DNA of 37,582 bases, from the IMG/VR virus record IMGVR_UViG_3300013093_002447, positions 1 through 37,582 of that record, one strand, 5' to 3'. The notes under the pieces were generated by a model that did no database searches, was not told where the DNA came from, and worked only from the letters and a program-made list of their open reading frames with translations. Made by a program: the position numbers and the translations under genes. Origin of the DNA: a virus. Positions 13,913 to 37,365 of the stretch are shown piece by piece. Numbering within the stretch: the first letter of the stretch is position 1; every line of letters begins with the position of its first letter.

Positions 13913-14439
13913 GCCTAAAAGAAATTACCAAAGACAAACACACAGAAGCGGAACATACACCGTTTATGGCCGCAACTATCCGCGGCAAGATTCCTAAAGA
14001 AATTTGGGCAGACTACTCATACAACAAAATGCTATGGTATGGTGCTATTGAAACTAAAGCTCGTGCAGAAGGCTTACTAGATGATCTTCCAGGCATTGAC
14101 CGTGCTCATGCTCTATATCTAGATGCTAAAGAAATGTTGGATGGAAACTTTCCAAAGTTCCGTCAAGAAACGATTGACTATCATCGCTATATCCTAGACT
14201 TGCCAGAAGGGCTAGTTGCCGCTCACTTGTACGTATGGCACATGGGTGACCTGTTTGGCGGGCAGATGATTAAAAAGATCCTAGATTATGTTCCACACCG
14301 CAATCTAGAGTTTAAAGATGTGGATGGATTAAAAGTAGCAATTCGTAGTAAACTAAGTGATGACTTAGGTGACGAAGCAAATAAAGCCTTTGACTGGGCC
14401 ATTAAAATTATGCACACCTATGACGCAGAACTTATTTGA
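13909..14439 (+). CDS. Heme oxygenase, biliverdin-forming, 176 aa
   Basis: It opens heme to biliverdin, CO and iron using electrons from ferredoxin or another reductant. The proximal heme ligand is His11 in KHTEAEHTPFM, aligning with the His25 motif of HO-1. The distal helix has MGDLFGGQM (Gly113-Gly118), the family's flexible glycine-rich segment. At 176 aa it is shorter than cellular HO1 (about 210-240 aa), as I recall for phage versions. It is coupled to clpS upstream and overlaps the bilin reductase downstream by 20 nt, so biliverdin is probably passed on. Confidence 0.92.
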   Translation: MSLKEITKDKHTEAEHTPFMAATIRGKIPKEIWADYSYNKMLWYGAIETKARAEGLLDDLPGIDRAHALYLDAKEMLDGNFPKFRQETIDYHRYILDLPEGLVAAHLYVWHMGDLFGGQMIKKILDYVPHRNLEFKDVDGLKVAIRSKLSDDLGDEANKAFDWAIKIMHTYDAELI

Positions 14440-15085
14440 ACGTGTACAAGCCTGTGCTGAAGAAATAAACAAACGGTTTGTTACTACAGGCGCATTAGGA
14501 AAAGTCCAAAGGACAGATATACTAGCTGATAAGGAATATAGCTCTATGCGTTATCGCAGAGCTCATATTAGTATTGTAGATGCGAGAGAAACTAAAAAAC
14601 TTTATCTACTTCATGTTACTGTATTCCCCCACACTAATGATCCTAGCCCTATTTTTGGCTTTGATATTGTTTGTGGACCTACAAAAGTAAGTGGTGCGTT
14701 CCATGATTTTAGTATCAGTGGAGATCCCACAAGTTTCATGTATCTTTGGTACAAAGCCAAAGTTGCTGGACTAGAGTGGAATAAACCTAGAGAACTACCC
14801 GATTGGGGCAAAGCAATATTCAGCCCTGCTATGGTTGCTATTGGCGCTGTAGGAGAAGAAGAACTAGATGCTTTTATTAAATTAGGACTAGAAAACTTGG
14901 ATTTTTATCTAGCTAATGTAGGCAAAGATCAGCAGGATGTTGCTACCTACGAAATGGCACAGAATCGCTATTGTCACTATCAAAAGCAAAATCCACGTAC
15001 ACCCGCTAGCCTACAGCATTTAGGCTTTACAGAGCAAGAAGCATTTGATTTCGTAGCAAATAACCTATTTCCGGAAATTCACTAA
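14420..15085 (+). CDS. pcyX: Ferredoxin-dependent bilin reductase, PcyX-like, 221 aa
   Basis: The start at 14420 (MTQNLFERVQACAEEINKRF) is inside heme oxygenase by 20 nt. The FDBR core is visible: AHISIVDARETKKLYLLHVT (strands), then FPHTNDPSPIFGFDIV and VSGAFHDFSISGDP. Asp96 in FHDFS sits where the catalytic Asp of PcyA and PebS lies, judging by motif alignment; Asp82 is in the GFD motif. Size fits the family. FDBRs reduce biliverdin to phycobilins. Together with an HO gene in an apparently non-cyanobacterial phage it best matches PcyX, reported from viral sequences as forming phycoerythrobilin. That subtype is an inference; PebS or PcyA remain possible. Confidence 0.8.
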   Translation: MTQNLFERVQACAEEINKRFVTTGALGKVQRTDILADKEYSSMRYRRAHISIVDARETKKLYLLHVTVFPHTNDPSPIFGFDIVCGPTKVSGAFHDFSISGDPTSFMYLWYKAKVAGLEWNKPRELPDWGKAIFSPAMVAIGAVGEEELDAFIKLGLENLDFYLANVGKDQQDVATYEMAQNRYCHYQKQNPRTPASLQHLGFTEQEAFDFVANNLFPEIH

Positions 15086-15095: not shown

Positions 15096-16436
15096 ATGCG
15101 AGCATTTGACTTCATTTCTGAAAAAATTGGTAACCATTCGTTAACTTTACTAAAAAATAAAGTAAAAAAAGGTATTGATCAGTCTAACGACGAAAACCTT
15201 TTGAATAAGATTTATACTACCTTAAACAGCGGTAGTATTACTAAACGCCTAACTGGTGAATTAGAACAGTTACCAGACGTAGATATTAGAAGATTTCATA
15301 CTGATATTGCTAACGCTATTATCAATGCTCCTGGAACATTTGATGAAAAAATGAACTTTGTATCCGGGCTACATGCTGGGTATATAGATGTTGATAAAAT
15401 GCTAGACGGCGCTCGCCACCACTTCTCAGACTTACTAGTTCCTACTGATAAAGTTCCGTTAAAGTTTTTATTTGAAATGTTTAACGAAATGAAGGACTTG
15501 GGCGGCAAAGCCAAAAAGGGTCCAGGTGAATTTGCGTTGGCTATTATGAGCCCAAAAATCTCTGTTTTTGGTCCTGGGGATCTAAAGATTGATGATCAAA
15601 TCATTGAAGTAAAAGCAGGGTCTGGAACTGTAGGTGATACTAGTATGTTCCAGCATCAAAAAGTAGGCGTAATCCTACAAAAGTATTTGCCAAACATGGA
15701 TGTAACAAGAGCTGTTGATGCTACTAAATTGGTTAAGGGTGTAGTCGCTGCACAGCAACAGGGTACTTTAAATGCTCAATCTTTATCTGGCCTAGCAGAT
15801 GAATTAGCAGATTATATTTTTAAAGGCCAGCCTTGGGCTAATACAACTCCTTTAAAACAAGCTATCAAAACAATTAGCGTAGATCACGATTCAATTACTC
15901 CAATTAGAAAAGGTTATCTAACAGCATCTTATAGTGCATACAAACAAAAGAAAGATCAATCAAAGAAGTTTGATGCTATGATGCTTATTAATTTTGAAAA
16001 TCAAGAATTAAGATATTTTGATGATCCTGAAGAATTATACAATGACGTAGATACTGTAACATTTTCAATATCTCACCCAAATGCAGGATGGGGTGGAAAA
16101 TTAATTGCACCTAGCGTTAATTTGCGTAGAGAACCTATCGCAGGAGTTGAACCTCCTAAAAAGATAACTCCAGCATCGTTAAAAGCATTCTACGGTCAAA
16201 CCGCAGAAATGATGATTCGTCAAGCACAACAACGTTGGCCACGAAATTTAGATTTAAGAGATCCTGCATTACAACAACAAGTATCTCAGTATATTGAACA
16301 GTTAGCTAACCAAAAAACTAATCATAAAAAGATTCCAGCGTTAGTAAGACAAAAGTTCCCTGAACTGATAATTAAGACTGCAAAACCAGCTGCAGAACCT
16401 AAAGTTCCTCCTACAAATCCTCCCAAGTTTTCTTAA
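15096..16436 (+). CDS. Hypothetical protein with possible PD-(D/E)XK site, 446 aa
   Basis: No close family is recognised. A central PGEFALAIMSPK...GPGDLKIDDQIIEVKAG (about residues 147-177) has the spacing of a PD-(D/E)XK nuclease core, with Asp and the E-x-K in IIEVKAG. The N-terminus MRAFDFISEKIG resembles the short capsid-targeting leaders of T4 internal proteins such as IPIII, so it could be packaged in the head; this is an inference. The rest is helical, and the tail is Pro/Lys-rich (AEPKVPPTNPPKFS). It has no Shine-Dalgarno. The gene stands alone between the bilin and curli operons. Confidence 0.75.
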   Translation: MRAFDFISEKIGNHSLTLLKNKVKKGIDQSNDENLLNKIYTTLNSGSITKRLTGELEQLPDVDIRRFHTDIANAIINAPGTFDEKMNFVSGLHAGYIDVDKMLDGARHHFSDLLVPTDKVPLKFLFEMFNEMKDLGGKAKKGPGEFALAIMSPKISVFGPGDLKIDDQIIEVKAGSGTVGDTSMFQHQKVGVILQKYLPNMDVTRAVDATKLVKGVVAAQQQGTLNAQSLSGLADELADYIFKGQPWANTTPLKQAIKTISVDHDSITPIRKGYLTASYSAYKQKKDQSKKFDAMMLINFENQELRYFDDPEELYNDVDTVTFSISHPNAGWGGKLIAPSVNLRREPIAGVEPPKKITPASLKAFYGQTAEMMIRQAQQRWPRNLDLRDPALQQQVSQYIEQLANQKTNHKKIPALVRQKFPELIIKTAKPAAEPKVPPTNPPKFS

Positions 16437-16469
16437 TCTAGAGCAAACTTAACTACATACAAAATTCTC

Positions 16470-16511
16470 GAGCTCCCACCTGTAAATAATAACACAGGAA
16501 CTTGGGAGCTC
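16470..16511 (+). promoter_or_regulatory. Hairpin covering the csgF ribosome-binding site
   Basis: GAGCTCCCA (16470-16478) pairs with TGGGAGCTC (16503-16511). Inside it CCTGT (16479-16483) pairs with ACAGG (16494-16498), leaving a 10-nt loop and a 4-nt bulge. The Shine-Dalgarno GGGAG (16504-16508) lies 7 nt before the csgF ATG and is buried in the stem. Confidence 0.72.
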
Positions 16512-16515
16512 AGTA

Positions 16516-16965
16516 ATGAAATACAAACTACTGGCAATAACACTACTATTGCCACTTATCGCGACAGCCGCACCTCTAAACGACTTTACTTTTAAAAGTC
16601 CAGCTTTCAACGGCAATGGGTATGGCACTTATGTGTTGACCATACAGAACGAAGAATACACACGTAAACAGGCTATAGAACAGGCCCTATTGCAGGCACA
16701 GCAACAGGCCAAAGCTGATCAAGCTAACCAACCAATTAATCAATTCTTGACCAACTTAGAATCAAGAATCTATGCACAGATAAGTCAAAACTTGGCTACG
16801 GCAATGTTTGCACCAGGTGCAGCTACCAGCGGAAGTATGAACTTCCAAGGTAATACAATATTTTGGCAAAATAGCGGCGGCGCTATTAATTTACAAATTA
16901 CAGATAACCTAGGCAATATAACCAATGTTTCTGTGCCATTAGGAACTTTTACGTTTACCCATTAA
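16516..16965 (+). CDS. csgF: CsgF, curli assembly factor, 149 aa
   Basis: CsgF is secreted through and bound to the CsgG pore and helps anchor the nucleator to the cell surface. After a signal peptide (MKYKLLAITLLLPLIATAAP) comes the CsgF start region (NDFTFKSPAFNGNGYGTY). A helix and the conserved beta C-terminus INLQITDNLGNITNVSVPLG follow. The length is near that of the E. coli protein (138 aa). It starts the curli operon and csgG begins 2 nt after its stop. Confidence 0.92.
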   Translation: MKYKLLAITLLLPLIATAAPLNDFTFKSPAFNGNGYGTYVLTIQNEEYTRKQAIEQALLQAQQQAKADQANQPINQFLTNLESRIYAQISQNLATAMFAPGAATSGSMNFQGNTIFWQNSGGAINLQITDNLGNITNVSVPLGTFTFTH

Positions 16966-16966
16966 T

Positions 16967-18130
16967 ATGAAAAGAATAATATGTTTATTATTGCTGACTC
17001 TATTGTTGCCTGGCTGCGCCATAATGCAGAAAGGTGGACAGCTTGCTGGCATTGAGCATACTCCAGAACTAGCTATAAACAAAATGCAGAAAGAATTTGA
17101 TACTATTCCCGCTCCTGCTAATGCAAGACGAGTATCTGTTGCGGTATACGGGTTCGCTGATAAAACTGGACAGCGTAAAACTCAAACAGGTGTAGCAAGT
17201 TTTAGTATGGCTGTTACACAGGGTGCAGAAGTGTTTCTTATCAAGGCACTTCAGGATGTAGGACACGGGCAATGGTTTGACGTTGTTGAACGTGTGGGTA
17301 TTGATAATTTGGTTAAAGAGCGCACCATCATTAAACAGATGCGTGACGCCTATGAAGGAAAGGACTCAACTCCGTTAATGCCTTTGCAATTTGCAGGGAT
17401 CATTATGGAAGGGGGTATTATTGGTTATGACAGTTCAAGTGAAAGCGGAGGCGCAGCATACCGTTGGTTAGGTATCGGTCCACAAACACAATACTCTAAA
17501 GATATCGTAACAGTTAGCTTGAGAGCGATTAGTGTTAACACAGGCAAGGTGGTGGCGGCAGTTCATGTTACTAAAACGGTTTACTCAACAGCAGATAGTT
17601 TTGCCATGTTGAAATTCTTTAGTGATGGTACACAGGCGTTTGAAGCTGAAACTGGATTGACTATAAATGAGCCAGGGACACTGGCGGTTAAAACAACTAT
17701 TGAAGCAGCGGTAGTTGAATTAATTAAGGAAGGTGAAAGTAAAGGAGTATGGGAATTTAGAAAAGCTCCACCTGTGGTAATGACTCCGACTCTACCTCAA
17801 CCAGTCACAGTAACACCGAAGGCTGAAATAAAAGAAGTAGAAGTTAAAAAAGAAGAAATTACAGCAGAAGTTAAAAAAGAAGAAATTAAGACAGAAGCTA
17901 AGAATGATCCACTACCTCAAGAAGAAGTCAAGTATCTTAAAAATTTAGCATTTTTATATGCACACGCTGACGAGGGTTCAACAAAACGTTGGCAACTAAC
18001 ACAAGGTACTAAACTAGCAGTTAAGAAAAAAGAAAATGGATGGTGGTTTGCGAAAGATGAGTACGGGCATGGAGGGTATGTCCGAGAGAGCGATTTAACG
18101 GAAGTATCACAAGGAAATAATAAAAAATAA
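16967..18130 (+). CDS. csgG: CsgG curli secretion pore with C-terminal SH3-like domain, 387 aa
   Basis: CsgG forms the nonameric outer-membrane pore for curli subunits. A lipobox (LLPGC, Cys17) precedes the CsgG domain (about residues 35-265): RVSVAVYGFADKTGQRK, VERVGIDNLVKERTIIKQM, IIMEGGIIGYDSSSESGG, RWLGIGPQTQY, VSLRAISVNTGKV. E. coli CsgG is 277 aa; the extra 120 residues are a Lys/Glu-rich linker with repeated VKKEEI and a C-terminal domain (LYAHADEGSTKRW, GWWFAKDEYGHGGYVRES) with the look of a bacterial SH3 domain. That fusion might bind peptidoglycan. The start has no Shine-Dalgarno, so it is likely coupled to csgF. Confidence 0.93.
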   Translation: MKRIICLLLLTLLLPGCAIMQKGGQLAGIEHTPELAINKMQKEFDTIPAPANARRVSVAVYGFADKTGQRKTQTGVASFSMAVTQGAEVFLIKALQDVGHGQWFDVVERVGIDNLVKERTIIKQMRDAYEGKDSTPLMPLQFAGIIMEGGIIGYDSSSESGGAAYRWLGIGPQTQYSKDIVTVSLRAISVNTGKVVAAVHVTKTVYSTADSFAMLKFFSDGTQAFEAETGLTINEPGTLAVKTTIEAAVVELIKEGESKGVWEFRKAPPVVMTPTLPQPVTVTPKAEIKEVEVKKEEITAEVKKEEIKTEAKNDPLPQEEVKYLKNLAFLYAHADEGSTKRWQLTQGTKLAVKKKENGWWFAKDEYGHGGYVRESDLTEVSQGNNKK

Positions 18131-18198
18131 CACTAACGGCTACGGCCAAGGAGATGAATTGGGGTAGAACACTACGTTGAAACTCAATTCTGAGATGT

Positions 18199-19233
18199 AT
18201 GAATGAAAGTATAAAAGGCGTTGGTAAGTTGTCGAGAAAATTACTTACAATTCTAATGTTGTCTGCGATGGCAACATCGGGTATGGCAGCTGACAATAGT
18301 ATCTATATTGATCAGACAGGTAGTAACAGCTCAATCACAATTAACCAAGATGGTGCAGGTAACAAGATCGGTGGATTGACTGGTGCCCCCGGAGACCAGA
18401 ATCGTGCAACTATGTACGGTGATGGTCAGACTATTAACATCAATCAGGTTGGTGCTAATAATGCGTTACAATTAGATGTTAGAACTATTTCCAGTTCCGG
18501 TAATACAAATGCTAACAATGATGCGAGATTTACCAATACTAACGGCAACAACTTTGTCTATAGTGCTGTTGGTAGTAATAACTTTGCTAACATTGACAGC
18601 AATAGCGCCGGTACAAGCGGCGGAAGCGATAGCAACAATATTGGTCTTGATATCGTAGGTAGCAGCAATAGAGCGGCTGTTAATGTACTAGGCGTATCTA
18701 ATACCACAGTTGCTAATATTGGTCAAAGTAATGCCAATTCTAACAGCAATACATTTAACAGCGTAACTAATGGTTCAAACAACCAACAGACAGTTAATAT
18801 CACTGGCGGTGGCGGCAATACTCTTAATGCGTATCAGGGCATGGGTACAGGTCTTAATACCAACACTCCTGCTGCTCCTACTGATTCCACCTATGCCAAT
18901 TTACTTGGTTTAGATAGCATTGTCACAGGTGGAACAACAAGTGATAACGGTAAAGTTGGTATCACTATTACTGGAGGCAATAACATAGTTAATGTCGGAC
19001 AAGTTGGTACAAGTGAAACAGCAAGCATCAATTTAACAGGTACTAATAACGGTTTAAGTATCACTCAGTCTGGTGCTAATGATACTACTACAGTAGCCAT
19101 GAATGGCAGTGGTAACTTATTGAATATTACCCAATCAAGTACAGGCGGTGTTGCAGGCATGATCGATATCAAGAGTAATGCAGGCGGTAGTGGTAGTGGA
19201 AACACGTTTAGTATAGTCCAAAAATCACGCTAA
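18199..19233 (+). CDS. Curlin-repeat protein (CsgA-like), 344 aa
   Basis: A secreted amyloid-type subunit. The signal peptide (MNESIKGVGKLSRKLLTILM... to about GMAADN) is followed by Asn/Gly/Ser/Thr-rich repeats. The curlin pattern S-x5-Q-x-G-x2-N-x5-Q is clear at SIYIDQTGSNSSITINQDGA and QTININQVGANN, and again at GLSITQSGAND and LLNITQSS. Repeats in the middle are degenerate. It is more than twice the length of CsgA (about 150 aa). Only a weak RBS (TGAG) precedes it, and the 68-nt gap from csgG contains an AAGGAG followed by an 8-codon frame that is probably not a gene. CsgA or CsgB identity cannot be told. Confidence 0.88.
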   Translation: MNESIKGVGKLSRKLLTILMLSAMATSGMAADNSIYIDQTGSNSSITINQDGAGNKIGGLTGAPGDQNRATMYGDGQTININQVGANNALQLDVRTISSSGNTNANNDARFTNTNGNNFVYSAVGSNNFANIDSNSAGTSGGSDSNNIGLDIVGSSNRAAVNVLGVSNTTVANIGQSNANSNSNTFNSVTNGSNNQQTVNITGGGGNTLNAYQGMGTGLNTNTPAAPTDSTYANLLGLDSIVTGGTTSDNGKVGITITGGNNIVNVGQVGTSETASINLTGTNNGLSITQSGANDTTTVAMNGSGNLLNITQSSTGGVAGMIDIKSNAGGSGSGNTFSIVQKSR

Positions 19234-19234
19234 T

Positions 19235-19411
19235 ATGGACAGTAGATTTCTTCAAAGTATGTACCAACAATGGTGTAATGGGCAAGCCGATGCTGCCCGT
19301 TACCGTTGGGCAGATTTTGTAGAACTTGCTGCCAAAACAAATGGCGTAGACGCAGATGCTATGATGCGTGAACTGCAAAAACACTATTGGTTCGAGTGGG
19401 GGGACAAATGA
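19235..19411 (+). CDS. Small protein in the curli operon, 58 aa
   Basis: The ATG is 1 nt after the previous stop, and the TGA overlaps the FecR-protein start (ATGA). The protein begins MDSRFLQSMYQQWCNGQADA, continues helical (RWADFVELAAKTNGVDADAM) and ends in HYWFEWGDK. It has no signal peptide, so it would be cytoplasmic, unlike its neighbours. Tight coupling on both sides argues that it is real; function unknown. Confidence 0.7.
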   Translation: MDSRFLQSMYQQWCNGQADAARYRWADFVELAAKTNGVDADAMMRELQKHYWFEWGDK

Positions 19412-20535
19412 AATCATGGAAGGTCATATTATCCGTACTCTTGCTGAATACATCGTTGAATGCAAGCGCCGCGGTGGGGACTGTAACAGAACAGATCAAT
19501 ACTCCGGGTTCGATACAACGATCGGGCAAAGCACTGACAGTAGCGAAGGGGACGGGGGTCGAGATGAACGACCTAGTCAACACGACCAAAGGTAAAGTTG
19601 GAATCACATTCCAAGACGACACTAAGGTAGAAGTCAATGAAAACTCCAAACTGGTCATCGATGATTTCGTATACGACCCTAAAAAACCGTCAGCTGGCAA
19701 GCTGGCTCTTAACATGGCTGGTGGAACTGTTCGCTATGCCTCAGGTGCGATTGCTCATAACAATCCTAGCAAGGTGGCTCTTAACACTCCTAGTGCTACC
19801 ATTGCTGTTCGCGGTACTGATTTTACTGCTACTGTGGATGAACTAGGCGAATCAACTATTATCTTGTTGCCCAGTTGCCCTAAAGGTTGGGTTGACATAG
19901 ATCGAGATTGTAAGACTGGTGCTATTGATGTTATAAATGATGCAGGGATGGTTAGTCTTACTAGGCCGTTTGAAGGTACTAAGGTTGCCACTCGCGGAAG
20001 TATGCCAATGAAACCGGCAATATTAAGTCTTAACTCAGATACAATTAACAACTTGTTAATACTAAGTCCTCCTAAAGAATTATCTAAAGAAAAAGAAGTC
20101 AGCAAAAGTACCATCGTTATACAAGCAGGTAATATGTTACAGCAGGACTTTCTTAAACAAGATTTTTTAAAGAGCGAATTAGCCAGTGATAATCCTTGGG
20201 GTGATGATCCCTTAACCAGACCCTTGTTACAACAATATTTCCTTGAAAACATTTTTAATATTTTAAGTGAACAGTTACAAGCAGAGACACAGGCCTTATT
20301 AGGAAACGTACTACAAGCTGATCCAATATTACCAGATTACAATAAGGCCATGCGTATCACTGTTGTAAAAACTGTAGATACTGTAACGCTAACTAAAGAC
20401 AACGGCAGTGATGTAGAAAGTGTTATGGTTCCTAAACATCAAAACTCTTTAATCATTGAAACACAAGGTTCATCAATAACTAAGAATCGTGTTAATGCAG
20501 GCGGCAATACCTACATCACTGTGACACAAAAATGA
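19408..20535 (+). CDS. Secreted FecR-domain protein, 375 aa
   Basis: The start at 19408 gives a signal peptide (MKSWKVILSVLLLNTSLNAS, cleavage near SAA-VG); an upstream TTG would spoil it. The FecR domain spans about residues 24-150: GSIQRSGKALTVAKGTGVEM, GKVGITFQDDTKVEVNENSK, GGTVRYASGAIAHN, KVALNTPSATIAVRGTDF. FecR domains of this free-standing kind are often encoded beside CHASE2 adenylate cyclases, as here. The C-terminal part is unassigned and has QQDFLKQDFLKSEL repeats. It probably acts in the periplasm or at the surface as a sensor or assembly factor. It overlaps genes at both ends. Confidence 0.88.
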   Translation: MKSWKVILSVLLLNTSLNASAAVGTVTEQINTPGSIQRSGKALTVAKGTGVEMNDLVNTTKGKVGITFQDDTKVEVNENSKLVIDDFVYDPKKPSAGKLALNMAGGTVRYASGAIAHNNPSKVALNTPSATIAVRGTDFTATVDELGESTIILLPSCPKGWVDIDRDCKTGAIDVINDAGMVSLTRPFEGTKVATRGSMPMKPAILSLNSDTINNLLILSPPKELSKEKEVSKSTIVIQAGNMLQQDFLKQDFLKSELASDNPWGDDPLTRPLLQQYFLENIFNILSEQLQAETQALLGNVLQADPILPDYNKAMRITVVKTVDTVTLTKDNGSDVESVMVPKHQNSLIIETQGSSITKNRVNAGGNTYITVTQK

Positions 20536-21173
20536 AATTAATCGTTGCTTTATTTCTTGTCGCCGGATTGGCCAACTGTGGTAAACTACATGCACAGGCC
20601 CTCAATCCAAATTATGTTATCCCTGGTACAGTTGTATTAGCGCCTATGTCTAATTCAATATACATTGAACAAATAGGAACCAATAATAATTTTAAAGTTA
20701 ACCAGGACGGAAATGGCCAATCTGCTACAATTAAAACTGGAGCGAATGGAAGTGTTGATAATAGCAGTATCAGTATCACACAGCAAGGAATAGGTTCTAA
20801 AACAGCAAACGTAGAACTTACCAATGGCTACAGCAACTCTGTAACTATTAATCAAGATGGTAACGGTCAGCATAGTGCGACTGTACAAAATTACACAGGG
20901 TCGGCCAATTCAATATCTATTTCTCAAACTGGCGCCTCAAATAATTCTTTCAGTGTTATCGGCGGTGCTGGTACAGGTAATAATGCTAATGTTATAAACG
21001 CTACACAAAATGGCGGTGTTGGTGCGGATAAATCCTTTGTACTCAATATGAATGGAACTACAGGTGCTAATGTAACCGTACAACAGACTAATCCCACACA
21101 ACCAAACAGCGGAAGCATGAGTATTAGCTGTGTAAGCGGTGCCTGCGGTAACTACAGTTACATACGTAATTAA
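20532..21173 (+). CDS. Curlin-repeat protein (CsgA/CsgB-like), 213 aa
   Basis: A second secreted fibre-type protein. The signal peptide MKLIVALFLVAGLANCGKLH (cleavage near LHA-QA) is followed by regular curlin repeats: SIYIEQIGTNNNFKVNQDGN, SISITQQGIGSK, SVTINQDGNGQHSATVQN, SISISQTGASNNS. The repeats are more regular than in the 344-aa protein. It ends with a Cys pair (SISCVSGACGNYSY). The two proteins may be fibre and nucleator, but which is which is not visible. It overlaps the FecR gene by 4 nt. Confidence 0.88.
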   Translation: MKLIVALFLVAGLANCGKLHAQALNPNYVIPGTVVLAPMSNSIYIEQIGTNNNFKVNQDGNGQSATIKTGANGSVDNSSISITQQGIGSKTANVELTNGYSNSVTINQDGNGQHSATVQNYTGSANSISISQTGASNNSFSVIGGAGTGNNANVINATQNGGVGADKSFVLNMNGTTGANVTVQQTNPTQPNSGSMSISCVSGACGNYSYIRN

Positions 21174-21176
21174 CAG

Positions 21177-21184
21177 TATAAATA
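21177..21184 (+). promoter_or_regulatory. T4-like late promoter octamer before the cyclase
   Basis: TATAAATA ends 4 nt before the ATG at 21189, with no Shine-Dalgarno. The predicted start point is at or just inside the ATG, so it may instead act as an upstream site for a later start, or the match may be chance. Confidence 0.45.
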
Positions 21185-21188
21185 TTTC

Positions 21189-23231
21189 ATGCTGAAAAAA
21201 ATCCTTTTGAGCCCATGGACTGCTCTATTAACTCTAGCGTTGGTAGTGGGCATACGAATCGCAGATCCCTCATTTGTTGAAAGCGTAAGACTACGTTATT
21301 TTGACACACTTATTACATCCAAGGCACCTACATTCAATAATATCGTAACTGTAAATATTGATGAAGCAACACTAGACAAATACGGTCAATGGCCTTTACC
21401 GAGAGCTGAATATGCCAAAATTATACGAGATCTATATAAGAGGGGAGCGGGACTTGTTGTATTTGATATACTCATGCCCGAACAAGATCGCTCTGGTGGA
21501 GATACTACGCTGGGTCAAGCTCTAAGTAAGTACCCTGTAGTCCTAGCAAATACTCCTTCGCAGAAAACAAAGAATACACCTAGACAGCCAGGATCTGCTG
21601 TAATAGGGGCAAACTATTTAGATACTATACTTCAATATCCCGGATTGATCGCTAACATACCTGCGTTAGAAAATCCAGCTGCGGGTATTGGAACAACTAA
21701 CACACTGCCAGAGATTGACGGGGTGAATCGCCGTCTACCATTAATAGCCACTATCGATGGAAAATTATATCCGAGCATAGCTCTAGAGACACTCAGAGTT
21801 GCGGCCGGCGATTCAACTTTTCAAGTCAAGCTCAACGAAAATGGTGTTGAGAAAATGCGTATCCCCAAGTTTGGAGCTATAAGCACGGACAGCTTGGGTA
21901 GGATATGGATTGACTGGAGTCAACAAAACAAACAAGTTAGCCTAATCGATTTGCCTAAAGATCTAGAGGGTGCTGTTGTTATCCTAGGAACAACTGCCGC
22001 AGGTATAGGTAATCCTATTCCAACTAGCAAGGGTGCAGTATGGCCACAGGATGTAGTTGCCGCAACTGTGGGAACTATGATGAACGGTGTGGTTATACAA
22101 CGTCCTGACTGGGCAGATGGTGCAGAGATATTGGGACTATTGGTAGCAGGTCTCGTATTATTATTTTTAACAAGGTGGACTTATGTTGGTATTGTATCGG
22201 GTGTTGTTATCATTGGCTCTATTATTCCTTTATGTGGATACGCATATAGCAGTGGCCTCCAACTCGTGGATGCGACTCTTCCGGTCGGCGGTCTTGTTTT
22301 GGTCATGCTTCACGCTTATGGTGTTAAGTTTATAAGCGAGTTCTTACAGAAACAAGCAATTAAGAAACAGTTTGCAGGTTACTGTAGTAAAGAAGTTGTA
22401 GAGCTATTACAAAAAGATCCAGACCTAATCAAGCGTGGTGTACGTAAAGACGTATCAGTTATGTTCAGTGACCTGCGTGGCTTTACACCTATTGGCGAAC
22501 ACTATGGCGATGACGTCGCTGGCCTAGGCAAGTACATGAACGGTTATATGGATGCTATCAGTCAGCCAATGCTAGATAACAAGGGTATGATTATCAAGTA
22601 CGTAGGCGATGCGTCAATGCACATACACGGTGCTCCTATTGAAGATCCTAACCACGCTCACACTATCGTTAAAGTAGGTTTAGAGATGCTAGACAAGGTA
22701 GACGAGTATACTAAGATAATGGAAGCACAAGGATTACCTCCTGCCGCTATGGGCTGGGGCTGTAATTCAGGTATTGGATTTATCGGTGAGATGGGTTCAA
22801 CAGAACGACACAGCTATGACATCTTAGGTGATATGGTTTCAACCGCTGCTCGTTTAGAAGCTCGTTGTAAGGCTTATGGTGTGCTATGTATCATTGGTGC
22901 TGAAACTTACAACCGTACCAAAGATAACTTCTTTTACTTGCTATTAGATAACTTACAACCAAAAGGTAAAACTGTAGCAGATTTAATTTACACAGCACTA
23001 CGTACTAAAGGTGCTGATTATACCAAAGATAAAGTACAACACGAATTGATGCATGCCTTGTACAAACAGAAAAAGTTTGACGAAGCGGCCGCTATGTGTA
23101 AAAAGCTAATTGGTAACTTTGGCGGACAGATGGACAAGTACTACAAGATATGGATTGAACGTTGCGACTTTATGAAACAACAAGACCTACCAGATAACTG
23201 GCAGGGAGAATTCATAGCTCATGAAAAGTAA
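21189..23231 (+). CDS. CHASE2-domain class III adenylate cyclase, 680 aa
   Basis: An N-terminal membrane helix (about 11-25) is followed by a periplasmic CHASE2 sensor (about 30-305, with FDTLITSKAP, IVTVNIDEATLDKYGQWPLP, GLVVFDILMPE). Three membrane helices (about 312-380) and the cyclase domain (about 420-600) follow. The metal Asps are Asp428 (MFSDLRGFT) and Asp474 (YVGDASM). Lys470 and Asp544 (HSYDILGD) fit adenine binding, so the product should be cAMP. The transition-state Arg is Arg555, but the usual Asn is Ser551 (GDMVSTAARLE), which may lower activity. It is the last gene of the curli operon. Confidence 0.9.
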   Translation: MLKKILLSPWTALLTLALVVGIRIADPSFVESVRLRYFDTLITSKAPTFNNIVTVNIDEATLDKYGQWPLPRAEYAKIIRDLYKRGAGLVVFDILMPEQDRSGGDTTLGQALSKYPVVLANTPSQKTKNTPRQPGSAVIGANYLDTILQYPGLIANIPALENPAAGIGTTNTLPEIDGVNRRLPLIATIDGKLYPSIALETLRVAAGDSTFQVKLNENGVEKMRIPKFGAISTDSLGRIWIDWSQQNKQVSLIDLPKDLEGAVVILGTTAAGIGNPIPTSKGAVWPQDVVAATVGTMMNGVVIQRPDWADGAEILGLLVAGLVLLFLTRWTYVGIVSGVVIIGSIIPLCGYAYSSGLQLVDATLPVGGLVLVMLHAYGVKFISEFLQKQAIKKQFAGYCSKEVVELLQKDPDLIKRGVRKDVSVMFSDLRGFTPIGEHYGDDVAGLGKYMNGYMDAISQPMLDNKGMIIKYVGDASMHIHGAPIEDPNHAHTIVKVGLEMLDKVDEYTKIMEAQGLPPAAMGWGCNSGIGFIGEMGSTERHSYDILGDMVSTAARLEARCKAYGVLCIIGAETYNRTKDNFFYLLLDNLQPKGKTVADLIYTALRTKGADYTKDKVQHELMHALYKQKKFDEAAAMCKKLIGNFGGQMDKYYKIWIERCDFMKQQDLPDNWQGEFIAHEK

Positions 23232-23267: not shown

Positions 23268-23999
23268 ATGCGTATACTCGTTTTTACAGTTGTATTATGC
23301 TCCTTACTTTTTAATTGGCGAGAAGTCTATGCCGATGCCAAACCTATGTCTATCACCGCAAGTTCCTGGTTGGTGGCCGATGAGTCTGGAAGAGTTATTG
23401 AAAGTAAGAATGCCGATGAGCAACGTAGCATAGCCAGCATTACTAAACTAATGACCGCAATGGTCGTACTAGATGCACATCAAGATCTAGATGAGCGTAT
23501 CAATAATTTTACTAGACGTGAGCTAATACAGTTAATGTTAGTAAAATCAGACAATCATGCTGCAGAAATACTTTGTGAAAATTATCCTACAGGGCGTAGT
23601 AGCTGTATATCTGCTATGAATTGGAAGGCACACTTGTTAGGTCTCACAAATACTCGTTATGTAGATCCATCAGGTCTTAATATGATGAATGTGAGTACAG
23701 CTAACGAGCTTATTCAAATCGTACTAGCGGCAAAAAATTATCCAGAAATTGTAGAAGCGGCACATACAGCCAGAGGTACAATTAAAAAGAAAAAACGTTT
23801 ATTTGTTTTTAGAAACACAAATCCACTAGTTGCTTCTCAAAACTTTATTGTTAGTAAAACAGGTTATATACATGCTGCAGGTGGATGTATTGTAATGATG
23901 TTGAATACAAAAATAGGACAACGCATTGTTGTCCTATTGAATAGTAAAAATACGCATACACGTATTCCTGAAGCAGATTATCTTGCTATGAACTTCTAA
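23268..23999 (+). CDS. D-Ala-D-Ala carboxypeptidase-like S11 peptidase, 243 aa
   Basis: A penicillin-binding-protein-type serine peptidase acting on peptidoglycan in the periplasm. A signal peptide (MRILVFTVVLCSLLFNW... to about YADA) precedes the three active-site motifs: SITK (Ser57, Lys60), SDN (Ser94-Asn96) and KTG (197-199). The gap between SxxK and SxN is 37 residues, against about 66 in E. coli PBP5, so a loop has been lost. There is no C-terminal amphipathic anchor, so the enzyme is probably soluble. It could trim cell-wall peptides during surface remodelling or lysis. It has no RBS. Its end overlaps the convergent desaturase by 14 bp. Confidence 0.9.
   Translation: MRILVFTVVLCSLLFNWREVYADAKPMSITASSWLVADESGRVIESKNADEQRSIASITKLMTAMVVLDAHQDLDERINNFTRRELIQLMLVKSDNHAAEILCENYPTGRSSCISAMNWKAHLLGLTNTRYVDPSGLNMMNVSTANELIQIVLAAKNYPEIVEAAHTARGTIKKKKRLFVFRNTNPLVASQNFIVSKTGYIHAAGGCIVMMLNTKIGQRIVVLLNSKNTHTRIPEADYLAMNF
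23909..23938 (-). terminator. Minus-strand terminator inside the peptidase gene
   Basis: An 11-bp perfect stem, AATAGGACAAC (23912-23922) with GTTGTCCTATT (23928-23938), and a 5-nt loop; on the minus strand it is followed by a T run. It lies about 50 nt past the desaturase stop. Confidence 0.8.
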
Positions 24000-24698: not shown

Positions 24699-25040
24699 TT
24701 AGCCGTTACCACCAGCTGCCTCTTGTTCTTCGGATGTGGTATTTTTATCTACTTTAGTGTGTATTTTTTGATTAATATCTCTTTCTGCTTCTACACGCTC
24801 ATGTTCAATTGTTTTACCACGTAGGTGTAGTACAGTATTAACCTTTTGATTTAGGCGAATTAAATCGTTATCTAACATACGGATACGATCAATAAGAGCA
24901 ATAAGAACTGTGTTTGCTTCACTGATCACAGGCTTAACTTCAGTAGTGGCCCATGTCCATACATACTTAATAATAAATCCCATACCTACGGCCATAACGA
25001 TCGGAAAGCCGTACTTATTAACTAATTCTACAATATCCAT
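24699..25040 (-). CDS. Small membrane protein (holin-like), 113 aa
   Basis: One N-terminal membrane helix (about 12-30, FPIVMAVGMGFIIKYVWTW) is followed by an amphipathic helix ANTVLIALIDRIRMLDNDLI and a charged tail ending in EEQEAAGGNG. The layout matches the gene at 25528-25809, so the two look like distant paralogs. Its start overlaps the preceding stop (TAATG). A holin role is possible from size and layout but unproven. Confidence 0.75.
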   Translation of the reverse strand: MDIVELVNKYGFPIVMAVGMGFIIKYVWTWATTEVKPVISEANTVLIALIDRIRMLDNDLIRLNQKVNTVLHLRGKTIEHERVEAERDINQKIHTKVDKNTTSEEQEAAGGNG

Positions 25041-25376: not shown

Positions 25377-25556
25377 TTAGTGTCTTTTGTTAATTAGTTC
25401 GTGTAGTTTATCTGCGGCGTTCCGTACATCTTCACTTAACGCACCTCTGCCAATATACTTTTCAATGTGTCTTGCGATGTTATGTAATTGCATTACATCT
25501 TCATCTAGCATAGCTAGTTCAATTTGGTTAATCTCTTCTTGCATCTGTTTTTCCAT
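25377..25556 (-). CDS. Hypothetical helical protein, 59 aa
   Basis: The start is uncertain: ATG at 25556 is used, with other candidates at 25544 (better spaced from GGA) and a TTG at 25568. All lie in or near the end of the upstream gene. The sequence is wholly helical and charged (EEINQIELAMLDEDVMQLHN). Function unknown. Confidence 0.68.
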   Translation of the reverse strand: MEKQMQEEINQIELAMLDEDVMQLHNIARHIEKYIGRGALSEDVRNAADKLHELINKRH

Positions 25557-25809
25557 CAGCACGGGCAATACGATCTACATCTGGTCTCAAACCTAGTGCA
25601 TTTGAGACAATGGTATCAATACGTACAACATCGTGGTTCATAGTCTTTACACGATTATCAAGAGCAATAATAATGCCCTTCATGCCGTTGATAGACCCGA
25701 GAACCCCTTGAAGTAATAGTTTGATTGTGAGATAAACGAAGTATCCGCCAGCTAGTGCGGCGGCAACTGGCATGCCAAGATCGCCAATTATTTTAAAAAT
25801 ATCACCCAT
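25528..25809 (-). CDS. Small membrane protein (holin-like), 93 aa
   Basis: An N-terminal membrane helix MPVAAALAGGYFVYLTIKLL (about 13-35) is followed by GIIIALDNRVKTMNHDVVRI and a basic C-terminus (DRIARADGKTDARRD). It has a strong RBS, CAGGAG, which is partly covered by a CCTGT...ACAGG stem. Paralogous in layout to the gene at 24699. It is the first gene of this small membrane-protein run. Confidence 0.75.
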   Translation of the reverse strand: MGDIFKIIGDLGMPVAAALAGGYFVYLTIKLLLQGVLGSINGMKGIIIALDNRVKTMNHDVVRIDTIVSNALGLRPDVDRIARADGKTDARRD

Positions 25810-36706: not shown

Positions 36707-36781
36707 GCCTCGTTCATATAGTGGTTATTATGCTCGGCTGTCTACCGGGACATAGGGGTTCGATTCCCCTACGAGGCGCCA
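36707..36781 (+). tRNA. tRNA-Asp (GTC)
   Basis: The acceptor GCCTCGT/ACGAGGC is perfect and the anticodon loop CTGTCTA gives GTC. The T arm is GGGG-TTCGATT-CCCC and CCA is encoded. It lies 5 nt after tRNA-Tyr. Confidence 0.9.
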
Positions 36782-36787
36782 ATTTTT

Positions 36788-36862
36788 GCCTGTTTAGCTC
36801 AGTGGTAGAGCAATCGCTTGATAAGCGGTAGGCCCGTGGATCGTTCCCACGAACAGGCACCA
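36788..36862 (+). tRNA. tRNA-Ile (GAT), variant T loop
   Basis: The acceptor GCCTGTT/AACAGGC is perfect. The D arm is standard (AGCTCAGTGGTAGAGC) and the anticodon loop TTGATAA gives GAT. The T stem is CGTGG/CCACG, but the loop is ATCGTTC rather than TTCGAnY. CCA is encoded. Confidence 0.88.
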
Positions 36863-36872
36863 AAGTTTCTAT

Positions 36873-36951
36873 TCCGCAGAACCCGAGCAAGGTGCATGGG
36901 CGTGACTGTTAATCACTGGTTAGCAGAGTTCGATTCTCTGATGCGGAGCCA
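36873..36951 (+). tRNA. tRNA-Asn (GTT)
   Basis: The acceptor TCCGCAG pairs with ATGCGGA except G7.A66. The anticodon loop CTGTTAA gives GTT. The T arm is CAGAG-TTCGATT-CTCTG, the discriminator is G and CCA is encoded. Confidence 0.88.
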
Positions 36952-36959
36952 AACAATTT

Positions 36960-37034
36960 GGGGGCAGTAGCGGGCTACGGTTCTCCCTTGCAAGGAGGAT
37001 GTCTAGAAGGGTTCAACTCCCTCGGTCTCCACCA
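36960..37034 (+). tRNA. tRNA-Ala (TGC)-like, shortened D arm
   Basis: The anticodon loop CTTGCAA gives TGC with stem TCTCC/GGAGG. The T arm has loop TTCAACT and CCA is encoded. The acceptor pairs with two G.T and an A7.G66 mismatch. The D region is about 3-4 nt short and forms only GTAG/CTAC with a 4-nt loop. Confidence 0.75.
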
Positions 37035-37041
37035 AATTTAT

Positions 37042-37116
37042 ATGGCGTTGGACTTCTGGGTAGGTCCTTGGCCCTTCAAGCCAAAGAGACGGGTTCGATT
37101 CCCGTACGCCATACCA
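37042..37116 (+). tRNA. tRNA-Glu (TTC) by anticodon, C33 variant
   Basis: The acceptor ATGGCGT/ACGCCAT and T arm ACGGG/CCCGT are perfect, and the D stem is GACT/GGTC. The anticodon stem TTGGC/GCCAA closes loop CCTTCAA, giving TTC with C instead of the near-universal T at position 33. CCA is encoded. Confidence 0.8.
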
Positions 37117-37122
37117 AACAAT

Positions 37123-37200
37123 CTGTGTGTAATGTTAATCTGGTAGACGGCCTGGTTTGGAACTAGGAGGCTGTAGGTTCAAATCCTACCACGCAGACCA
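37123..37200 (+). tRNA. tRNA-Pro (TGG)
   Basis: The acceptor CTGTGTG/CACGCAG (one G.T) and anticodon loop TTTGGAA (TGG) are clear. The T arm is GTAGG-TTCAAAT-CCTAC and CCA is encoded. Confidence 0.88.
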
Positions 37201-37204
37201 ATTC

Positions 37205-37279
37205 GCCCTTGTATCCTTAGTGGTAGAGGTCCTGTTTTGTAATCAGGGTGTGGAGGTTCGATTCCTTCCTGGGGCACCA
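37205..37279 (+). tRNA. tRNA-Thr (TGT)
   Basis: The acceptor starts GCCCTTG with a T6.T67 mismatch. The anticodon loop TTTGTAA gives TGT and the T loop is TTCGATT. CCA is encoded. Confidence 0.85.
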
Positions 37280-37287
37280 AGTTCTAT

Positions 37288-37365
37288 TGGGGAATCGCCT
37301 AGTCCGGTCTAAGGCAACGGTCTTTGAAATCGTCATCATGGGTTCGAATCCCATTTCCCCTGCCA
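37288..37365 (+). tRNA. tRNA-Gln (TTG)
   Basis: It starts TGGGGAA as bacterial Gln tRNAs do (weak first pair, here T1.T72). The anticodon loop CTTTGAA gives TTG with stem ACGGT/ATCGT. The T arm is ATGGG-TTCGAAT-CCCAT and CCA is encoded. Confidence 0.87.

Follow-up and report, generated by a model that had tools for sequence, protein, structure and literature searches.

Curli of Escherichia coli, encoded by csgBAC and csgDEFG, combine a pore of the CsgG family with CsgF and with curlin-repeat substrates that carry Sec signals, and related genes have been found in phages. csgF and csgG were reported from pelagimyophages, for which 'sibling capture' was proposed, and no curli operon was seen in freshwater fonsimyophages (PMC7029224). 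A lysis role was proposed for the module of phage Melnitz (PMC9004378), and csgGF are mentioned in temperate viruses of sediment (PMC9636769). In 2022, a pelagiphage set in the order CsgF-CsgG-CsgA/B-FecR-CsgA/B-adenylate cyclase, preceded by genes labelled 'histidine kinase', was described, with superinfection defence, sibling capture and uptake as proposed functions (PMC9599517). Fibre formation is not demonstrated for any phage curli module in these papers. Here, we analysed a 37.6-kb IMG/VR virus record (IMGVR_UViG_3300013093_002447, 37,582 nucleotides, hereafter the window), which carries such an operon of seven nearly contiguous genes, all in one direction (16516-23231, plus strand). We report a strong hairpin directly before its csgF gene, which is new and without description in the cited phage-curli papers. 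We lean towards the view that the module is a late, secreted curli fibre system of T4-like phages, for which fibres are predicted.

The hairpin (Table 1), which was not mentioned in an earlier note on this DNA, is formed by the leader GAGCTCCCA-CCTGT-AAATAATAAC-ACAGG-AACT-TGGGAGCTC-AGTA-ATG. The inner pair of arms is CCTGT/ACAGG (16479-16483/16494-16498), a TAAATA core lies in the loop region (16483-16488) and the Shine-Dalgarno sequence GGGAG is located within the 3' arm (16504-16508). The minimum free energy is -22.1 kcal/mol (z -5.5), equal stability was reached in 0 of 200 shuffles, and computed removal of the 5' arm abolishes the fold. We then compared 65 related loci obtained by an IMG/VR search with the window CsgG; as they were fetched by similarity to the window, they are not an unbiased census. 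TAAATA is found near the csgF start in 54 of the 65, within a hairpin in most, and the mean folding z across 43 distinct leaders is -2.25. The arms are highly divergent between viruses and yet complementary: in a register-free re-pairing test, pairing with the own partner had a median rank of 2 of 42 (p<5e-5), a result that also held for 25 leaders thinned to <60% identity. Covariation in a sub-alignment with a hand-set structure was above that of 499/500 shuffles (1/500 reached the score). A first hand-drawn consensus, which was mis-registered, gave no covariation, the corrected register being the positive one, and RNAalifold returned no consensus structure for the csgF leaders, whose arm lengths vary. 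At least eight pairs enclose the TAAATA core in 32/39 csgF leaders compared with 45/179 other genes; the enclosing hairpin is preferential for csgF. Strong folds near the TAAATA sites of clpS and dnaK were considered as the same device and rejected, because these are mostly stem-loops beside the core and do not enclose it. A separate hairpin covers an ATAAATA core and the start codon of a calcineurin-like phosphoesterase gene in four relatives (L012, L015, L021 and L033); its 3' arm lies within the coding sequence.

The core resembles a T4-type late promoter. In the structural regions of the relatives, ATAAATA, the core of T4 late promoters, shows the strongest enrichment of any 7-mer before genes (29-fold). 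In phage T4, the ribosome sites of genes e, soc, 49 and I-TevI are hidden in hairpins, and transcripts of e and I-TevI that start at late promoters lack the 5' portion (PMC3014915, PMC2988022). The csgF leader shares with these late-only hairpins the ribosome site in the 3' arm, the overlap with a late-promoter-like core and the position downstream of a co-directional gene block. It differs in that most csgF leaders have TTAAATA or GTAAATA as the core and not TATAAATA, and in that it fronts a curli operon, where the T4 hairpins front lysozyme and endonuclease genes. As the genes upstream of csgF are co-directional with it, there is read-through to be gated. We predict that csgF translation is gated, by either a promoter lock or an RNA operator, and by analogy with T4 the hairpin probably keeps the operon silent until late in infection. 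A TATAAATA sequence is present just 4-5 nucleotides from the cyclase ATG (window 21177-21189), a spacing that is nearly constant in many relatives, suggesting that the cyclase transcript may be leaderless and late, or its start unusual.

The module is well conserved among the relatives. By our own tally from the locus listing, the order csgF-csgG-curlin-fecR is kept in 52/52 contigs long enough to show it, a second curlin-repeat gene follows fecR in all 46 contigs that extend further, and in 37 of these 46 the CHASE2-cyclase lies within the fetched DNA, on the other strand in 4 of the 37. The second curlin slot is the most variable, with about 190 amino acids in many relatives and up to 852 in L047. 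The operon also occurs on the 71.7-kb contig L002, the CsgG of which is 100% identical to that of the window; DNA-level relatives of the window were not found among GenBank phages. Five relative contigs of 157-357 kb encode the T4-type major capsid protein gp23 and the portal gp20, which indicates that the lineage keeping the module is one of large T4-like phages, and the samples, judging by their numbers, are presumably mostly freshwater. A CsgG tree groups the 51 window-like viral sequences in a single clade (99/99), separate from marine phages and Caulobacteraceae.

The pelagiphage module (PMC9599517, PMC7029224) has the same components as that of the window, namely CsgF, CsgG, a CsgA/B-type protein, FecR, a second CsgA/B-type protein and the CHASE2-cyclase. 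Its carriers HTVC008M and Melnitz (PMC9004378) are T4-like, as are the relatives of the window, and have the same gene order. Their CsgG proteins are only 42-44% identical to the window CsgG and fall outside its clade, and both phages lack the SH3 tail on CsgG, the 58-amino-acid gene and the csgF hairpin. In Melnitz and HTVC008M, csgF is preceded by two genes for paralogous proteins of 92-115 amino acids, which combine a membrane helix with a coiled coil (PHROG 18771). Such a pair, named p93 and p113 here, adjoins the module in 26 contigs and in the two marine phages; in the window it is on the opposite strand, unlike in Melnitz and HTVC008M. An operon-linked histidine kinase was not found in 11 records (the podovirus histidine kinase of PMC9599517 lies outside this comparison), in which HATPase_c gave no match over the cut-off and one weak match in G311, at a distance of about 14 kb from csgG. 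If the genes are the same, the published label 'HK, sometimes two' is wrong, because they are of the PHROG 18771 type. The phage module and the p93/p113 pair are also present on four contigs (L067, L068, L069 and L070) in bacterial metagenome-assembled genomes (MAGs) of Flavobacteriaceae, Rhodobacteraceae and Pirellulales; these look like mis-binned phage contigs.

The earlier note had named the seven gene products as they are listed in Table 1, and the analysis bears this out: the window encodes a phage curli (type VIII secretion) system of several genes, among them two substrates of the fibre type and the FecR/CHASE2 pair. Its gene order recurs in related phages, a check that the note had proposed, and its conservation across viral contigs speaks against a recent host insertion absent from relatives. 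The note had also put forward the added substrates, the FecR/cyclase pair and the ideas of aggregation and superinfection exclusion; these had been published for pelagiphages in 2022 (PMC9599517), and the operon itself is not a discovery. Compared with E. coli curli, the window has a single operon with two curlins, an SH3-tailed pore and the joined FecR/CHASE2-cyclase pair, and CsgE was not found. Inspection shows export signals on five of the seven proteins, and the Curlin_rpt scores of both curlin-repeat proteins are above the Pfam family cut-off. The 58-amino-acid gene is real, with homologues at the same position of the module in about a dozen further contigs.

The SH3-like domain that the note had seen on CsgG is below the Pfam cut-off in the window itself (21.8 vs 24.1 bits) and gains its support from the CsgG homologues, in which SH3_4 was matched in 14/38 and SH3_3 in 11/38; with a family profile, the tail was found in 21/51 viral CsgG homologues. 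On the CsgG tree it requires about eight gains or losses, a number that partly reflects contigs ending inside csgG. The pore and the SH3 domain are separated by a Pro/Lys/Glu-rich linker of about 60 residues, and the C-terminus of CsgG is periplasmic. As the linker is of the periplasm-spanning kind, a natural inference is that the SH3 tail anchors the pore to peptidoglycan. Relative to the published module, the SH3 tail on viral CsgG is new.

The FecR-domain protein is secreted, as the note had stated, with an N-terminal Sec signal; its correct start is the ATG at 19408, which shares the sequence ATGA with the stop codon of the 58-amino-acid gene, and not the TTG at 19387. AlphaFold2 models place the FecR domain at about amino acids 24-193, followed by a helical linker, and by Foldseek its fold is like that of the PupR signalling domain. 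Regulators of the iron-citrate type have an anti-sigma domain and an inner-membrane helix ahead of the FecR domain. PF04773 alone was found among the Pfam matches of the window FecR, with no match to the anti-sigma domain FecR_N, and with the Sec signal at the N-terminus we rejected a role as an iron-citrate sigma regulator. A conserved C-terminal domain of six short strands (amino acids 312-375; model predicted local distance difference test score 84.5) matched no PDB structure significantly and no curlin. It carries a terminal strand-Q-x motif, which occurs in 33/36 FecR proteins compared with 22/77 curlins and 14/629 other proteins. Profile comparison of this domain with curlins gave only P=0.008 and 0.058, and a curlin-like amyloid module is not claimed. 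In many bacteria, fecR genes adjoin CHASE2 or cyclase genes and the DNA in view has no curli genes (L076, L079, L099, L159, L160, L164-L166, L168, L170 and L174), and because of this adjacency FecR and CHASE2 look like a general pair that has been joined to curli. Five of six catalytic positions are kept in the window cyclase, namely both metal-binding Asp residues, the purine-binding Lys and Asp, and the Arg. The cyclase is split into two open frames in the near-identical L057 and L058 (15423-18383). In addition, an orphan gene for 94-136 amino acids lies a short way upstream of csgF in L048 (8461-8844), L054 (9090-9488), L052 (2382-2729) and about 30 further IMG/VR loci. Its product shows homology to the C-terminal 110 residues of the CHASE2-cyclase, which comprise the end of the cyclase domain and a helical tail, and might serve the cyclase as a partner or decoy. 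The window, Melnitz and HTVC008M gave no match to this gene.

The same joined module is present on two Caulobacteraceae MAG contigs (L071 and L072), a cellular counterpart that is new. As in the window, CsgF, CsgG, curlins, FecR and the CHASE2-cyclase are co-directional and the FecR C-terminus has the same strand motif. The operon differs from that of the window in its bacterial neighbours (acyl-CoA dehydrogenase, TetR, DsbA-like) and in that both curlins precede FecR. It is rare, a full-length FecR match occurring in 1/299 genomes of the order.

Based on these observations, we propose the following course of events. Early in infection, mRNA reading through from the long block of plus-strand genes upstream would carry both hairpin arms; the conserved hairpin would hide the csgF ribosome site and leave csgF untranslated. 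Later, a promoter with the TAAATA core at the loop might start the mRNA inside the hairpin, and by analogy with the T4 lysozyme gene e the loss of the 5' arm would allow the operon to be translated. CsgG and CsgF would form an outer-membrane pore, held to peptidoglycan by the SH3 tail where present, and both curlin-repeat proteins would pass through Sec and then the pore to form fibres on the dying cell. The periplasmic FecR protein and the genetically linked CHASE2-cyclase could act as a sensor pair reading the state of the envelope or the fibres, the cyclic nucleotide acting on host receptors. The late fibres would keep neighbouring cells or debris together with progeny ('sibling capture'), and we favour this holding of progeny or siblings as the likeliest benefit. 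In its most specific form, which we put forward tentatively and would not be surprised to see fail, a lock of the T4-lysozyme type imposes early silence and then, at the end of infection, delivers a peptidoglycan-anchored pore together with a FecR/CHASE2-sensed curli matrix; fibres and sacculi would persist after the death of the cell and keep the progeny close to new hosts.

Several observations weigh against this proposal. Neither Melnitz nor HTVC008M has the csgF hairpin, and Melnitz infections showed no clumping by cytometry or transmission electron microscopy (PMC9004378). The transition-state Asn of the cyclase, which is kept in HTVC008M and the Caulobacteraceae enzymes, is a Ser in the clade of the window and in Melnitz. 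The earlier note had called the operon self-contained, which stands for the pore, CsgF and the substrates; a search of 12 phage records gave no cyclic nucleotide-binding protein, so any signalling must depend in part on the host, and CsgE (PF10627) had no match in 11 phage records or the L072 genome, with E. coli matched as a control, so secretion may be ungated. The periplasmic CsgE gate is not universal in curli systems. Finally, the base preceding TAAATA at csgF is T or G in 34/39 leaders, unlike the late promoters of the relatives, which prefer A, and for this reason the core may be an RNA operator instead of a promoter. The hairpin could then be a translational operator for a phage RNA-binding repressor, in the manner of T4 gp43, which uses a hairpin operator (loop UAAA in RB49), or simply a structured leader. 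As TAAATA cores lie 10-40 nucleotides before many other genes without such hairpins, as expected for a promoter, and HTVC008M has a plain TATAAATA directly before csgF at the same place, we regard an operator as possible though doubtful; it would compete with the timing steps only.

The main rival to curli fibres is a role in lysis timing, as proposed for Melnitz (PMC9004378), with CsgG/CsgF as a late envelope pore, pinholin-like or disrupting the outer membrane, that aids release, and the curlins as plugs or cargo. The proposed late lock has the architecture seen at T4 lysozyme gene e, an exported endopeptidase-like gene adjoins the module, and the lack of a detectable CsgE would fit an open pore. 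The p93/p113 pair beside the module matches holin profiles, but this similarity is weak (1e-4 to 0.01), short and confined to the first ~20 residues, and we do not claim p93 and p113 as holins. Moreover, CsgG in the outer membrane cannot depolarise the inner membrane, and a bare pore needs no curlins, FecR or cyclase, yet the lineage retains them together; we therefore judge lysis timing to be unlikely, if still worth serious attention. Superinfection exclusion, in which fibres or the pore mask receptors against competing phages, was proposed in PMC9599517 and suggested by the earlier note. Surface amyloid can block phage. The operon bears late-promoter-like and ribosome-site-hiding elements, and the position of the core inside the hairpin predicts late expression. 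Known T-even exclusion genes, in contrast, act early. With operon control predicted to be of the late type, exclusion loses weight and appears improbable. We give still less credence to uptake of nutrients or iron chelates through an ungated CsgG pore with FecR as an iron sensor, which was suggested in PMC7029224 and PMC9599517 and to which the missing CsgE match would lend itself: with FecR soluble, exported and devoid of a detected FecR_N, the iron-citrate regulator reading is inapplicable, CsgF and the curlins would be superfluous, and late expression would come too late to feed replication.

Table 1. Positions of the curli operon and associated features in the window.
Feature	Position	Strand	Evidence
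Hairpin, arms GAGCTCCCA/TGGGAGCTC (16470-16478/16503-16511)	16470..16511	+	Folding
csgF, secreted curli accessory protein, 149 aa, signal peptide	16516..16965	+	Pfam CsgF PF10614 8.6e-15, over cut-off; PHROG 35372
csgG, outer-membrane lipoprotein pore, 387 aa	16967..18130	+	Pfam CsgG PF03783 5.6e-42; lipoprotein signal LLLPGC
SH3-like C-terminal domain of CsgG, aa 326-377	17942-18097	+	SH3_4 1.6e-4
Curlin-repeat protein 1, 344 aa, signal peptide, fibre subunit candidate	18199..19233	+	Curlin_rpt PF07012 2.2e-6; NCBIfam CsgB 8.9e-7; alignment
58-aa cytoplasmic protein	19235..19411	+	Same-slot homologues, 45-66 bits
Secreted FecR-domain protein, 375 aa	19408..20535	+	Pfam FecR PF04773 4.3e-9; AlphaFold2 models; Foldseek to PupR signalling domain
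Curlin-repeat protein 2, 213 aa, signal peptide, conserved C-terminal cysteine pair	20532..21173	+	Curlin_rpt PF07012 1.1e-4; alignment
TATAAATA, T4-type late promoter sequence, directly before cyclase gene	21177..21184	+	Sequence match
CHASE2 sensor-class III nucleotide cyclase, 680 aa	21189..23231	+	CHASE2 2.4e-40; Guanylate_cyc 4.4e-14
Exported S11 family peptidase, D-alanyl-D-alanine endopeptidase-like	23268..23999	+	Peptidase_S11 1e-38; NCBIfam PRK11669 4.5e-50
p113, one membrane helix and coiled coil, PHROG 18771	24699..25040	-	Immediately precedes csgF in HTVC008M and Melnitz
p93, paralogue of p113	25528..25809	-	Homology

The surroundings of the operon contain further genes. The S11 peptidase gene also comes after the cyclase in L005, L034 and L047, and it is possible that it is an accessory of the curli module. 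L037 encodes a secreted protein of 677 amino acids with an autotransporter beta-domain (Pfam 2e-14) between the second curlin and the cyclase (15168-17198), and this family is present in six loci. Two genes before csgF, the window codes for a bilin reductase similar to phycocyanobilin:ferredoxin oxidoreductase (14369-15085; NCBIfam 6.6e-25), and a heme-oxygenase-like gene is also present in 20 related loci. Genes named by eye as ClpS, small heat-shock protein, DnaK, ClpX and bS21-like recur upstream of csgF in relatives, and examples of this protein-quality-control set near the curli region are found in L004 (4381-6288) and L054 (5764-6966). Seven tRNA genes in a row (Asp, Ile, Ala, Glu, Pro, Thr and Gln) are located at the end of the window (36707-37365).

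Taken together, phage curli modules are widespread in the sea and several published functions compete to explain them. The leader hairpin provides sequence-level evidence on timing, which separates exclusion, expected early, from a matrix or lysis role, expected late. The SH3-tailed pores, a FecR protein in which no anti-sigma domain was found and the absence of a histidine kinase beside the operon extend or correct what had been described, and in the Caulobacteraceae operon the control of curli by FecR and CHASE2 could be studied in a cellular setting.

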